This document shows positions 40,138-44,738 of a stretch of DNA of 64,000 nucleotides, in pieces (position 1 is the first letter of the stretch; each line of letters opens with the position of its first letter). The stretch comes from Kordiimonadaceae bacterium (GTDB taxonomy: Bacteria > Pseudomonadota > Alphaproteobacteria > Sphingomonadales > Kordiimonadaceae), in assembly GCA_017640725.1 (NCBI GenBank), contig JAEPQB010000001.1, positions 930,001 to 994,000 on the forward strand, given 5' to 3'. The position numbers were made by a program, and so were the translations under genes. Under the pieces are notes generated by a model. It saw nothing but the letters and a program-made list of their open reading frames with translations, was not told the DNA's origin and made no database searches.

Positions 40138-40168
40138 TATCAAAAGGTCCACTTTTTATTTTTTGATA
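40138..40168. promoter_or_regulatory. Inverted repeat between flavoprotein and pdxR-like gene
   Basis: TATCAAAA (40138-40145) and TTTTGATA (40161-40168) form a perfect 8-bp inverted repeat with a 15-base spacer, ending 9 bases before the regulator ATG. Likely operator of the adjacent MocR-type regulator, since such factors act on the divergent gene; this is inference. Confidence 0.5.
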
Positions 40169-40177
40169 AGGCCAATT

Positions 40178-41605
40178 ATGTTTTCTACCCGCTTGCTGCA
40201 GCTGTCCATCGGTCGGGACGCCGGCGCCTCTCTACAGCGACAACTGCACAATCACATCAGGCGATTGATCCTGTCAGGCGAGTTGCAAGCAAGGGAAAGG
40301 CTTCCGTCAAGCAGGGCGCTGGCCAAAGACTTGGAGATCGCAAGGATTACAGTCACTGAAGTGTACGACCAACTGAGCGCTGAGGGTTACATAGAGACCA
40401 AAACAGGGGCTGGTACTTTTGTGGCGGACTTTGTGCCAGATCATTTGGGCACGATGCAAACGGATGACATTGAAGTCGATTCACCTGCCGAAAGACAGAC
40501 AAGCGCACCCATTTCTTCGGGCATGCCAGCATTGGAAGCATTCCCAAAGGACAAATGGGCCCGCACGGCCGGGCGGGTTGCCCGCAAATTGAGCACAGGC
40601 GAAATGGTGCATGCCGACCCCAGGGGTTACCTGCCTCTTCGAAGCGAAATAGCCCAACACCTACGCCTGGCGCGCAACGTCGTTTGCTCCCCTGACCAGG
40701 TGATGATTATCTCAGGGCTGCAACAGGGGCTTTTTGTTCTGGCAAACAGCATTTTGGCCGCAAACAGCACGATTATCCTAGAAGACCCTGGATATGACGG
40801 ACTGCTTGCGGCTGCACGCGCCAGCAATAGTTCCATTGGCTTTACGGCTGTTGATGAAGCCGGCGCTCTCCCGCCCGAACAAGACCAGGGCTTGCTGGTT
40901 GTAAGCCCCTCGCGTCAGTATCCACTTGGGCTGACAATGCCACATGGCAGACGCATGGAGCTGCTTGCATGGGCTCGCACAAACAACAGCTTCATACTGG
41001 AAGATGACTATGACAGTGAGTTTCGATATTCAGGCCGCCCCCTGAACAGCTTGCAGGGCATCGCCGGCGGTGAACGGGTGATTTACGGCGGGACTTTTTC
41101 CAAATCCATCTTCCCTGCCTTGAGGCTCGGGTATTTGGTTTTGCCGGATTCGCTTGTGGATCAGGTGGTTAAATTCAGAGAAGCAATCGACAGTTATCCA
41201 TCCATCACCAACCAACTGTTGTTGCATGATTTCATGGCAAGCGGCGAGTTCCAGCGCCACATAAGGCGGCTGCGAAAAATTCACGCCGAACGCAAAGAGC
41301 TATTTGATCAGGGTGCACACAAGCACCTTGCCGAATGGTTGTCGTTCCTGCCCTCTGATGCAGGGCTTCACTGTACGGCTTGGCTCAACGAAACAGCTTT
41401 GGCACTAAATTTGAAAGACCATGACATGGCAGAATATGCGCAAGCGTACGGCATTGGAGCTGTTTCGGTGTCACGCTGCTATCAGCACGCCCCTGCGCGG
41501 CAAGGGCTGCTCATAGGCTTTGCGAACCTTCAGCCAGCAGAAATAGAGCCAGCAATTCAGCAACTTGCGGCTCGCATCCGTCAAGAAACGGGCTTTTCAA
41601 GCTGA
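40178..41605 (+). CDS. PdxR-like MocR-family transcriptional regulator
   Basis: A 475-residue fusion: a GntR winged helix at residues 12-80 (QLHNHIRRLILSGELQARERLPSSRALAKDLEIARITVTEVYDQLSAEGYIETKTGAGTFV) and a class-I aminotransferase-like domain with the PLP Lys in YGGTFSKSIFPALRLGYLV. The EDDYDSEFRY and ISGLQQGLFVLA segments complete the PLP site. MocR regulators sense PLP or amino-compound adducts. It starts at ATG 40178 rather than the in-frame TTG 15 bases upstream, which lies in the operator. Confidence 0.9.
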   Translation: MFSTRLLQLSIGRDAGASLQRQLHNHIRRLILSGELQARERLPSSRALAKDLEIARITVTEVYDQLSAEGYIETKTGAGTFVADFVPDHLGTMQTDDIEVDSPAERQTSAPISSGMPALEAFPKDKWARTAGRVARKLSTGEMVHADPRGYLPLRSEIAQHLRLARNVVCSPDQVMIISGLQQGLFVLANSILAANSTIILEDPGYDGLLAAARASNSSIGFTAVDEAGALPPEQDQGLLVVSPSRQYPLGLTMPHGRRMELLAWARTNNSFILEDDYDSEFRYSGRPLNSLQGIAGGERVIYGGTFSKSIFPALRLGYLVLPDSLVDQVVKFREAIDSYPSITNQLLLHDFMASGEFQRHIRRLRKIHAERKELFDQGAHKHLAEWLSFLPSDAGLHCTAWLNETALALNLKDHDMAEYAQAYGIGAVSVSRCYQHAPARQGLLIGFANLQPAEIEPAIQQLAARIRQETGFSS

Positions 41606-41655
41606 CCTGCGCCGTGTAGCTTTAAGCATGGGTGTGGCAGCGTTCGGAGGAACAA

Positions 41656-42411
41656 ATGCGTTCAGGCAAATTTTTCAGTGGCTTGGTCTTAGCGACGGCA
41701 ATTTTCGCCAGTCAGGCGGCACAAGCACAGGACTGGAGCTATTCTGGCGGCAATGGCCCCAATAATTGGCATACGCTCTCGAACAATAATGCACTGTGTG
41801 CTGCCGGACGTTTTCAGTCGCCGATCAATATTGAAGGTACTGAACCAGCCGTGATGAATCGGTTGCGAACGGATTACAGCGTCTCGGCGCTTAATATGGC
41901 GCACCGGCGCACCATGATTGCCTTTGACTATGAAAACGGCAGTTATCTGCGTGTCGGTCGCAAAGTTATGGCGCTCAATGGCTTTGTGTTCCGAACGCCC
42001 GCAGAGCACACAGTGAACGGTGAGCAGTTCCCGTTGTCGATCCAGTTTATGCACCGCGCGTCAACGGGGGAACGGGGTATCGTAGTCGCCCTATTCAAGG
42101 AAGGCCGGGAAAACCGGGCACTTTCGGAATTGATGCCGCACCTGCCAATTGAACCGGACCAGCGCAACCGGGTCGAAAATACTCTCATTAACGCTCGCGA
42201 TTTGATGCCTGCGGACAAAAGCTACTACCGCTACGCCGGGTCGCTAACCATGCCGCCGTGTTCGGAAGGCGTTAGCTGGTACATACTCAAACAGTCTGTT
42301 GAAGCTTCTGCAGAACAAATCAATTTGCTGCGGGGTGTGCTGGGCGGTGACAATGCTCGCCCAATACAAAGCCGCGGCAATCGCCTCATTCTGGATGCAA
42401 GGGGCGAATAA
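41656..42411 (+). CDS. Alpha-carbonic anhydrase-like protein lacking the zinc ligands
   Basis: A 251-residue protein with GGAGG five bases before ATG 41656. A signal peptide ends near AAQAQ (residue 25). The alpha-CA fold is clear: WHTLSNNNALCAAGRFQSPINIEG, PAEHTVNGEQFPLSIQFMH and YAGSLTMPPCSEGVSWYILK. Against active enzymes (FHFHTPSEH...EAHFVH), the three zinc His are Val111, Arg113 and Gln130, while the gate-keeper Glu117 of AEH is kept. It cannot bind zinc in the usual way and is probably a carbonic-anhydrase-related binding protein in the periplasm. The lipoprotein gene follows after three bases. Confidence 0.87.
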   Translation: MRSGKFFSGLVLATAIFASQAAQAQDWSYSGGNGPNNWHTLSNNNALCAAGRFQSPINIEGTEPAVMNRLRTDYSVSALNMAHRRTMIAFDYENGSYLRVGRKVMALNGFVFRTPAEHTVNGEQFPLSIQFMHRASTGERGIVVALFKEGRENRALSELMPHLPIEPDQRNRVENTLINARDLMPADKSYYRYAGSLTMPPCSEGVSWYILKQSVEASAEQINLLRGVLGGDNARPIQSRGNRLILDARGE

Positions 42412-42414
42412 ACC

Positions 42415-43221
42415 ATGAAACAGTCAACGCTAAGAACCTTCACAGTCAACGGCTTGAAACTGATGCCGCTTATGGCGGTTGCGGCATGCGGCATGTTTGG
42501 ATCTTCTGTGCCCTCGTCGCGCCCCGGTGCACTCGTGCAGGAGATGGCGTCAGGCCTGGAAGACGCGGTATGTACCGGCCGCGCACAAGAAGCGGTGGAT
42601 GTGCTGCTGTCTGAACCGCTTGTGTCCCCCACAGACCGCTTTTTTGTGGCCCTGGCACTTGAAGAGGCAGGACTGGCACCGCGCGCACGCCTTTTGTATG
42701 CCAATGTCATGCAAACGGCCTCTGATGACATCGTCCGGGCCAGATGCCCTGACCGGATCCTGGCCAACGGCCCCGTGAAGGAAGAAGCCGCCCGGCGATT
42801 GGCTGCACTCTCGGAACTGCTTACAGCAATGGACGTGAACCTGTCACCGGTTCGGCCCCTCCATGACGGCATTCCTCCTTCAGGCCCTGTAAAAATTGTT
42901 GATGGTCGGAAATTCCCTGACAGTTTTGCTGGTGGTCCTCCCCGTGCGGTATCCCGCCCCACCAGCCAATCCCCGCTTGGACAGTGGTTTGTCCATTTGG
43001 CAAGCTACCGTTCCATGGACAATGCCATGCGCAACAAACCAACACTGGAAACCAAATTTCCGGCGCTTGCTGGTATTATTGATCAGTGGGAGCTGGACGT
43101 TGGCGGCAATCTGGCCATTCGCTTAGGAGTTAGAGTGTCTGACAGAGGCGACGCAAACGGCCTTTGCACCGCGGTTAAAAGCCAGCAAGAATATTGCGCA
43201 GTTATTGACACATCGCGCTAG
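42415..43221 (+). CDS. Putative lipoprotein with C-terminal SPOR-like domain
   Basis: A 268-residue protein. The N-terminus has a hydrophobic core ending in a lipobox-like VAAC (Cys25), so it may be lipidated. The middle (about 40-135) is helical and may contain a degenerate TPR-like pair (GRAQEAVDVLLSE, FVALALEEAGLAPRARLLYANVM). The C-terminal 80 residues (GQWFVHLASYRSMDNAMRN, LAIRLGVRVSDRGDANGLCTAVKSQQEYCAVI) resemble a SPOR domain, which binds denuded peptidoglycan glycans. It is cotranscribed with the CA-like gene. The SPOR assignment is by eye. Confidence 0.65.
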   Translation: MKQSTLRTFTVNGLKLMPLMAVAACGMFGSSVPSSRPGALVQEMASGLEDAVCTGRAQEAVDVLLSEPLVSPTDRFFVALALEEAGLAPRARLLYANVMQTASDDIVRARCPDRILANGPVKEEAARRLAALSELLTAMDVNLSPVRPLHDGIPPSGPVKIVDGRKFPDSFAGGPPRAVSRPTSQSPLGQWFVHLASYRSMDNAMRNKPTLETKFPALAGIIDQWELDVGGNLAIRLGVRVSDRGDANGLCTAVKSQQEYCAVIDTSR

Positions 43222-43334: not shown

Positions 43335-44738
43335 ATGGCTGGACCTACCGAACATGCGCATTGGTCATCACGCTGGACATTTATGCTCGCTGCCGTGGGC
43401 AGTGCTGTTGGCCTTGGCAACATCTGGAAGTTTCCATATCAAGCCGGCCTGAATGGTGGCGGCGCTTTTGTGCTTTTTTACCTGGCATTTGTATTCCTGA
43501 TCGGCCTGCCTGTGCTGATGGCAGAATTGTCGATTGGTCGCCGGGCCCAAAAATCACCGGTTTACGCGATGGAACAAGTCGCCAGCGAAGAAGGGCGCAG
43601 CAAACTTTGGGTGCTGCTGGGTTGGTCTGGTGTGCTCGGTGGTTTTATCATCCTGACTTATTATTCCGTTGTTGGTGGCTGGGTACTTGCCTACATCGTA
43701 AAAGCGGCGCAGGGATTTGGCGGTTTTGACGCCGAAATGTCCCGCGCCACCTTTGGCGCCTTCTCAACCGACCCGGTTGAGCCGGTGATCTGGCATTTTG
43801 TCTTCATGGCGGTAACGGTTGCCATCGTTGCTCAGGGCCTCAAAGGCGGCCTTGAAAAAGCAGTGAAAGCGCTGATGCCGGCGCTGTTTGTCTTGTTGAT
43901 TGGAATGGTGATCTACTCTGGTGTCGTGGGTGATTTGGGTGCAGCTCTCTACTTCCTGTTCAACCCGGACTTCCATACTCTTTTCTATCAAGAGACGGTT
44001 GACGCAGCGACGGGCGCTGTTACGCAAACCTTCACGATTGCACGCGTGCTCAACGCGCTCGGTCTTGCGTTCTTCTCGCTTTCGCTGGGTATGGGTACCA
44101 TCATGACCTATGGTTCTTACCTGACCAAAGACATCAATATCGGCAAATCTGCCTTCACAATTGCGCTGGCTGACAGTGCCGTTGCTTTGATGGCAGGCCT
44201 GGCGATTTTTCCGATCGTTTTTGCTTTTGGCCTGAACCCAGGTGAAAGTGTTGGCCTCGTGTTTATCACGCTCCCGATTGCCTTTGGTCAAATGCCGGGC
44301 GGCGAAATTGTTGGTGCGGCCTTCTTCTTCCTGTTGGCGTTCGCGGCTATCACGAGTGCCATTTCGCTGATCGAACCAACAGTGTCCTTCATCGAAGAAA
44401 AAACCGGCAAGAGCCGGGGCGTGATCGCGTCGTTTGTTGGTGGCTTGATTGCGACGATTGGCTTGTTGTCCGCCTGGTCACAAAGCGGCAGCGTGCTCGG
44501 TGACGTGAGCATCTTTGGCATGGACTTGATGTCTGCCAAGGGTTACCTGACCGATAATATCATGATGCCAGCTGGCGGCCTGTTCATCGCAATTTTCTCT
44601 GGCTGGTTTATCAGCCGCAAAAATGCAATGGAGGAACTTGCGCTCGAGGACGCATCGTTCCGCAAATACTATTTCCTGGTGAAATATGTATGCCCCGTTG
44701 CGATCTCGGCTGTGTTTGTATCGGTACTATTCTTCTAG
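43335..44738 (+). CDS. Sodium-dependent transporter, NSS (LeuT) family
   Basis: A 467-residue inner-membrane symporter of about 11 helices. Helix 1 has the sodium/substrate signature AAVGSAVGLGNIWKFPYQAGLNGGGAF; helices 6-8 carry LNALGLAFFSLSLGMGTIMTYGSYL. Substrates in this family are amino acids or related amines and cannot be chosen from sequence. A GAGGGGAG ribosome site precedes the ATG. The 113-base leader holds two small inverted repeats (CCAAGG-GAA-CCTTGG and GCGCC/GGCGC). A terminator follows the gene. Confidence 0.93.
   Translation: MAGPTEHAHWSSRWTFMLAAVGSAVGLGNIWKFPYQAGLNGGGAFVLFYLAFVFLIGLPVLMAELSIGRRAQKSPVYAMEQVASEEGRSKLWVLLGWSGVLGGFIILTYYSVVGGWVLAYIVKAAQGFGGFDAEMSRATFGAFSTDPVEPVIWHFVFMAVTVAIVAQGLKGGLEKAVKALMPALFVLLIGMVIYSGVVGDLGAALYFLFNPDFHTLFYQETVDAATGAVTQTFTIARVLNALGLAFFSLSLGMGTIMTYGSYLTKDINIGKSAFTIALADSAVALMAGLAIFPIVFAFGLNPGESVGLVFITLPIAFGQMPGGEIVGAAFFFLLAFAAITSAISLIEPTVSFIEEKTGKSRGVIASFVGGLIATIGLLSAWSQSGSVLGDVSIFGMDLMSAKGYLTDNIMMPAGGLFIAIFSGWFISRKNAMEELALEDASFRKYYFLVKYVCPVAISAVFVSVLFF

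Follow-up and report, generated by a model that had tools for sequence, protein, structure and literature searches.

An exported alpha-carbonic anhydrase-like protein lacking the zinc histidines, encoded beside a SPOR-type lipoprotein in Kordiimonadaceae: a possible bacterial parallel to the carbonic anhydrase-related proteins

Introduction

Carbonic anhydrase-related proteins (CARPs) have the alpha-carbonic anhydrase (alpha-CA) fold, have lost at least one zinc histidine and are constrained in sequence. They include CARPs VIII, X and XI, the CA-like domains of receptor phosphatases and TgCA_RP of Toxoplasma. In the available text of the sources, the first ligand place of TgCA_RP is taken by Phe and the third by Gln (PMC5437132, PMC4981384), and the triad of cnidarian CARPs is often R-H-Q, a recurrence that was read as non-random (PMC4981384). 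Acatalytic CAs have been studied mainly in animals and their job is still debated.

In this study, we analysed a stretch of 64,000 nucleotides (the window) from a Kordiimonadaceae bacterium (assembly GCA_017640725.1, contig JAEPQB010000001.1, positions 930,001 to 994,000). A first-pass annotation, made from the letters alone, had proposed that the window encodes a zinc-less, exported CA-related protein in a two-gene unit with a SPOR-like lipoprotein, and had suggested a binding role in the cell envelope. Judged by its sequence, the window protein resembles a CARP and comes under the sequence definition of the group, a CA fold without at least one zinc His; the replacement of His119 by Gln recurs in its family, as it does in cnidarian CARPs. 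Unlike the CARPs, the members of this family are bacterial, have a signal peptide and are encoded beside a SPOR-type lipoprotein, and triad-bearing and triad-less orthologues occupy one syntenic locus. The family thus offers the transition known from animals in a bacterium. With the bacterial periplasmic alpha-CAs of Persephonella (6im0), Neisseria (1kop) and Thermovibrio (4c3t), the window protein has in common the fold over its whole length, an N-terminal signal peptide, Cys48/Cys202 and the equivalents of Glu106 and Thr199, but unlike them it has neither the zinc ligands nor a His64 equivalent. Among the papers listed by an open-access literature search there was nothing on a CA-SPOR pair and no bacterial CARP; most subscription journals lay outside that search, so that it is weak evidence of novelty.

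Results and Discussion

The CA-like coding sequence, delimited by the ORF list, Pfam and the match to 6im0, lies at 41656..42411 on the forward strand (251 aa, stop included). As its start we chose the ATG at 41656, which has GGAGGA ahead of it; the mechanical ORF (41632-42411, forward strand) opens at a GTG. Residues 1-24 (41656..41727, forward strand), ending in AQA, are predicted, from a reading of the sequence, to be a signal peptide. PF00194 is the sole domain matched (E 1.2e-27, 97.6 bits against a Pfam cut-off of 27), and Persephonella 6im0 is the closest solved structure (phmmer E 5.4e-51). In a Foldseek comparison, the CA half of a model in which the two proteins were fused matched 6im0 with E 1.4e-24 and a TM of 0.82 by target length, at an rmsd of 7.6 over 222 columns. 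By sequence and fold, the protein is therefore an alpha-CA, and the only one over the cut-off in the window genome; the PF00194 and 6im0 matches agree with the earlier claim that the fold motifs are well kept. NCBIfam had no match at E<=1 for this protein or for its SPOR-type partner.

In the alignment with 6im0, the motif F-H-F-H-x-P-x-E-H reads F-V111-F-R113-T-P-A-E-H in the window protein. Both this alignment and that of the orthologues put Val111 (41986..41988), Arg113 (41992..41994) and Gln130 (42043..42045, all on the forward strand) in the places of the zinc ligands His94, His96 and His119, where the human CA II numbering was placed on the family alignment by motif. The replacement of all three zinc histidines, as first proposed, was thus confirmed: the triad is V-R-Q. 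Since ligand loss is common to the orthologues, it is not a sequencing error. The proton shuttle His64 is also gone, its place being taken by Thr86; the equivalent is His in 94% of the H-H-H rows outside the family that have a residue there. The gatekeepers are present as E117 and T198; none of the 27 family members departs from Glu at the position of Glu106, and all have Thr or Ser at that of Thr199. Cys48 and Cys202 are invariant in the 24 aligned family CAs. With the ligands gone, the window-lineage protein is predicted, with high probability, to hold no zinc and to have no CA activity.

The partner coding sequence (42415..43221, forward strand, 268 aa with the stop included) begins 3 bp past the CA-like stop in the same frame. 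Its lipobox VAAC, with Cys25 (42487..42489, forward strand), was read from the sequence and marks a bacterial lipoprotein. A lipobox Cys was seen by eye in 25 of the 27 partners, the two others being those of G028 (L090) and G021 (L091), which resemble plainly secreted proteins. Residues 41-138 (42535..42828, forward strand) form a predicted TPR-like helical domain (AlphaFold2, VIA-align), whose TPR-like matches reach Z 9.8 and are such as helical repeats commonly give. Residues 189-266 (42979..43212, forward strand) form a SPOR-like domain according to Pfam, the orthologue search, AlphaFold2, Foldseek and VIA-align. The window partner itself stays below the PF05036 cut-off (15.1 bits against 21), and 19 of the 26 partner orthologues match SPOR at E<=0.1, the best at 6e-5. 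The predicted model has the beta-alpha-beta-beta-alpha-beta order of the SPOR fold at 189-266 and superposes on the SPOR domain of RlpA (6i05) with Z 7.9 and an rmsd of 3.0 over 74 residues. Foldseek with the partner model lists the SPOR domains of RlpA, DamX and DedD, none of its matches reaching E<=0.001, and a search of PDB sequences with the partner profile gave no match at E<=1. A SPOR fold is supported by the predicted structure, and with the lipobox it bears out the SPOR-like lipoprotein that the first-pass annotation had placed next to the CA-like gene.

The likeness to SPOR-domain proteins such as RlpA, DamX, DedD and FtsN lies in the C-terminal domain of the partner. Crystal work on RlpA describes, in its available text, a highly conserved Q270 and arginines 302, 309 and 311 that contact denuded glycan (PMC6895207). 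Unlike the known SPOR-domain proteins, the partner has a TPR-like N-domain, and with the motif and the VIA range (190-266 to 266-341) as guides to the positions, the glycan-contact Gln is replaced by His194, invariant in 26 aligned partners, and R309 by a residue other than Arg; the equivalent of R311 is the invariant Arg236. Peptidoglycan binding, as proposed in the first-pass annotation, is accordingly a putative role. A second lipoprotein of the window genome with a SPOR domain (L211, G000:C8 near 310605) also has His for the glycan-contact Gln, its motif there being VHLASF. There may thus be an alphaproteobacterial subfamily of SPOR domains marked by a C-terminal Cys pair. In one draft genome (G014, L073) the partner frame breaks near the C-terminus and the match resumes in another frame, which may be an assembly error.

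The pair is conserved. A CA was found in 37 of the 98 related genomes searched and in 28 of the 29 genomes of the family, with one match per family genome (E<=1e-10) and no internal stop in any of the 28. The partner is present in 27 of the 29 and lies directly downstream of the CA on the same strand in 27 of the 28 genomes with a CA; G026 has the CA without the partner, and G024 has neither. With starts chosen by alignment, the gap between the genes ranges from -17 to +15 bp (median 2) in all 27, which suggests translational coupling. The two-gene unit claimed at first reading is therefore a conserved feature of the family. Homologues with the same kind of His loss and the same neighbour, which the annotation had asked after, were also found: 22 of the 27 partnered CAs are zinc-less. 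Within the family the zinc site varies and the pair does not; the conserved trait is therefore the pair and not the loss of zinc, and the five partnered CAs with H-H-H make the pair compatible with an apparently complete zinc site. A scan for promoters and terminators gave nothing above shuffled sequences.

For structure prediction of the pair, which the annotation had named as a check, the CA and its partner were folded as one AlphaFold chain, read through their common frame, from 43 aligned rows with 5 linked pairs. Residues 71-190 and 211-230 of the CA and both partner domains were confident, whereas the first 70 and last 20 residues of the CA were not, and the fused model had a pTM of 0.45 and no confident interface. 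We consider it very likely that the CA-like protein depends functionally on its partner; direct contact between the two is somewhat favoured.

The wider gene order MocR-CA-SPOR-SNF-SufE-MFS-PspC is common to the H-H-H members G007, G011 and G001 and is shared by H-H-H and zinc-less members alike. The H-H-H member G010 has the same order with no PspC match within the fetched stretch, and the H-H-H member G022 shows CA-SPOR-SNF. In the window, a GntR/aminotransferase (MocR-type) regulator, recognised by Pfam and conserved in only part of the family, lies upstream (40163..41605, forward strand), and an SNF/NSS-family symporter gene, placed by Pfam and neighbourhood comparison, lies downstream of the partner (43335..44738, forward strand). 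By analogy with animal CARPs that boost a transporter without catalysis, the CA-like protein might be an accessory of this symporter. CARPs VIII, X and XI raise transport by MCT1, according to the available text of PMC6609565, and in 24 of the 25 family genomes with a contig long enough to show it, the distance from the partner to the start of an SNF orthologue is 76-253 bp; the order CA-SPOR-SNF is kept even in G025 and G022, where the other window neighbours were not found. However, the SNF gap of 76-253 bp (1312 bp in the remaining genome) contrasts with the -17 to +15 bp within the pair, no SNF was found in the 15-16 kb fetched around a second pair described below (f44), and SNF copies in tandem together with an odd SNF-based tree point to paralogy. 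An accessory role for the symporter is thus quite improbable. Two SNF-like copies stand in tandem in G005.

The triads of the 27 partnered CAs are V-R-Q (five), H-H-H (five), T-R-Q (three), D-H-Q, K-H-Q, H-H-Q and N-H-E (two each), and V-H-Q, T-H-Q, S-H-Q, T-K-Q, E-R-Q and N-H-H (one each). At least one zinc His is therefore missing in 22 and all are present in five (G007, G011, G001, G010 and G022), and the His119 position is Gln in 19 of the 22 zinc-less rows. The triad is complete in each of the 12 outgroup rows. Living relatives show every step of the series H-H-H, H-H-Q, x-H-Q and x-R-Q. The H-H-Q members (G004 and G006) raise the question of whether part of the family is still a metal enzyme, like the eta class, with other residues perhaps completing the zinc site elsewhere. 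In the available text of PMC5437132, the eta-class CA of Plasmodium falciparum has the same H-H-Q triad and human CA II with Asn at position 94 retained reduced activity. The window protein, with V-R-Q, differs from the eta class; its lineage has no ligand left, and the His94 and/or His96 equivalent is missing in 20 of the 27 members. We regard a remaining metal enzyme as very improbable.

The zinc site has changed repeatedly. With the three ligand columns removed before the CA tree was built, the AU test rejected the 22 zinc-less rows as one clade (p 0.0017) and the 19 rows with Gln119 as one clade (p 0.0067). The zinc-less rows were also rejected as a clade on the partner tree (2.3e-5) and on the joint tree (3.9e-6), and on both of these the H-H-H family rows were rejected as a clade as well (p<=2.3e-5). 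Alignments A1 and A2 hold 26 of the 27 partners and 24 of the 27 partnered CAs, and the partner tree carries long-branch warnings for G025, G019 and G023. Because the zinc-less rows do not form a single clade, the site must have changed more than once. The CA tree needs at least five changes, or seven if they are irreversible (4-7 and 6-10 over 1000 bootstrap trees); the minima are 3 free and 9 irreversible on the partner tree, 4 and 9 on the joint tree, and 4 and 8 on a SufE tree of 21 rows. An SNF+SufE tree gave only 2 free changes and is given little weight, since it apparently combines SNF paralogues (G003 with G004, and the two SNF-like copies of G005). These low free minima (3 on the partner tree, 2 on the SNF+SufE tree) leave room for His regain, and His, above all from Gln, may have been regained. 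In the joint tree the H-H-H member G007 adjoins G008 (D-H-Q).

The family makes up 11% of the branch length in a tree of 132 CAs, yet it holds 4 of the 13 changes when these are free, or 7 of the 16 losses when they are irreversible. The excess has a binomial p of 0.045 for free changes, which is marginal, and of 0.0009 for irreversible ones, rough values that assume independent changes and a known tree. Two simpler histories were considered. A single loss without regain was ruled out by the AU tests, and paralogy of zinc-bearing and zinc-less copies is unlikely given the one CA match per genome and the gene order common to G007, G011, G001 and G010.

We compared alignment columns between three sets, the 22 zinc-less and the 5 H-H-H rows of the family and 93 H-H-H rows from outside it, the last containing one genome twice (G044 = L120). 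Nine columns are at least 93% conserved in the outside rows, whereas in the zinc-less rows they fall short of 80%. Matched by motif, these are Gly63, His64, Gln92, His94, His96, Val121, Val143, Thr200 and Asn244 of human CA II, for the most part recognised active-site positions. Even in the five H-H-H members the catalytic set is looser (His64 equivalent 4/5, Gln92 2/5, Val121 3/5). Seventeen other columns are fixed (>=95%) in the zinc-less rows and have another or a minority residue outside the family; V76, E158, R181, R240 and D247 are among them and occur in at most 5% of the outside rows. The five H-H-H members likewise have 16 of the 17 fixed; the pattern is that expected of a role older than the loss of zinc, although shared ancestry alone could account for part of it. 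The family-fixed residues are a candidate partner-binding surface.

The replacing residues might themselves have been put to use, R113 and Q130 forming with the kept gatekeepers a different active or ligand-binding site. Both are invariant in the seven genomes of the window clade despite varied codons (CGA, AGA, CGG, CGC and CGT for R113, CAG and CAA for Q130), and the Glu106 and Thr199 equivalents persist as described above. Dioscorin, a plant protein that is not known to have a lipoprotein partner, has a CA fold and is among the solved-structure matches of the window protein. By the titles of its structure entries, it was crystallised with ascorbate. On the other hand, zinc-less rows are free at position 111 (V, T, D, S, K, E or N), have H, R or K at 113 and drift at the equivalents of 121, 143 and 200, and no conserved new site is visible family-wide. 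New chemistry at the old zinc site therefore has little probability.

The zinc-less copies are under selection. By the Nei-Gojobori method, dN/dS of the mature domain is 0.049-0.157 in eight zinc-less pairs and 0.099-0.281 in four H-H-H pairs; 3 of the 15 pairs were saturated and several others had dS >1, and the safest values, from three zinc-less pairs with dS <0.6, are 0.098, 0.061 and 0.058. Recent pseudogene decay is ruled out by stop-free frames, low dN/dS and shared losses, and like the CARPs the family consists of genes under selection and not of pseudogenes. The first-pass annotation had held that close relatives with intact His would imply recent decay. Such orthologues do exist, with the same partner, in 5 of the 27 cases, but the second half of the argument fails. 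Several genera have losses in common, the losses are recurrent, and purifying selection acts on the zinc-less copies, which recent decay therefore does not explain.

If periplasmic CO2 hydration were no longer needed, the zinc site could drift under relaxed selection alone, the CA being retained in a minor or vestigial capacity and the partner having a role of its own. The looser catalytic columns of the H-H-H members fit this reading. So does the distance from the family node, which is somewhat longer in zinc-less rows (median 0.93, range 0.56-1.13) than in H-H-H rows (0.67, 0.62-0.84), with overlapping ranges, so that some mild relaxation is possible; terminal branches are not longer in the zinc-less rows (median 0.16 vs 0.28). 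Other CAs are also at hand. A beta-CA (PF00484, E<=1e-5) is encoded in 26 of the 29 family genomes, and the window genome (G000), rated 100% complete, encodes two gamma-CA-family proteins (L218:563-1165 and L219:426-1007) and so need not lack carbonic anhydrase. Relaxed selection alone nevertheless sits badly with the low dN/dS, with a gene kept stop-free in 28 of 29 genomes where a drifting one would be expected to be lost or broken more often, with a partner kept close by in 27 of 27, and with the fixation of family-peculiar residues. We consider it unlikely. A beta-CA as the substitute that permitted zinc loss was likewise set aside, because the genomes without PF00484 (G000, V-R-Q; G007, H-H-H; G025, N-H-H) form no pattern.

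The reading that we prefer, and think reasonably probable, is that the CA fold serves as a periplasmic protein-binding module working with the SPOR-type lipoprotein, and that CO2 hydration has been lost in the window lineage. In its favour are the kept fold without ligands, the constant and closely spaced pair, the gene order common to H-H-H and zinc-less members, the low dN/dS, the recurrent zinc-site changes and the family-fixed residues. The lipid anchor of the lipoprotein would hold the pair at the outer membrane. Early in the history of the family, an exported CA would have become linked to the lipoprotein, and the shared role would then have constrained new residues while catalysis became dispensable; with catalysis dispensable, the zinc site would be lost again and again, often through His119 to Gln. 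More broadly, the family could be a bacterial CARP system, a lipoprotein-tethered, non-catalytic envelope module in which the zinc site was given up many times, at a single syntenic locus, after the partner role had been taken on, a proposal to which we give even chances. Since orthologues with and without the zinc ligands share one locus and a constant partner, with graded intermediates between them, the idea that a binding role precedes and permits the loss of catalysis becomes directly testable.

CAs outside the family put the pairing in perspective. We sampled 97 CA ORFs from the class and phylum, spread over genomes with clades unevenly represented, and removed two that repeated the last 200 residues of another row; the phylum match G718 was also omitted, as its contig place and score equal those of G582, which was included. 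H-H-H is present in 81 of the remaining 95, the 14 others including two short or misaligned rows (L196 and L199) that were omitted from a wider CA tree and from the count that follows. Twelve of the 93 assessable outside CAs are thus zinc-less (L115, L123, L124, L129, L131, L132, L133, L172, L195, L197, L204 and L208). A profile search found no partner-like gene in the available flanks of these 12, and the neighbours of ten of them (all but L204 and L172) are mixed, with no common partner among the genes listed. With the triad missing in 22 of 28 family members and in these 12 of 93, a PF00194 annotation does not imply CA activity in bacteria.

In another family (f44), a SPOR-type gene directly follows one H-H-H CA in all four sampled CA-bearing genomes (G260, G357, G133 and G433; L214-L217), and this CA is far from the window family in the CA tree. 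A rule that SPOR pairing goes with zinc loss is ruled out by this zinc-bearing pair. Zinc-less CAs without a partner on the one hand and the f44 pair on the other show that pairing and zinc loss are separable and that neither requires the other. Like the low-confidence interface of the fused model, the five H-H-H partnered CAs, the longer node distances of the zinc-less rows and the low free minima, they count against the preferred reading. SufE, MFS and PspC are, like SNF, missing from the fetched 15-16 kb around the f44 pair, and in G433, one of these genomes, a MocR-like gene lies near it on the opposite strand. Some of the f44 CAs have a twin-arginine-like start.
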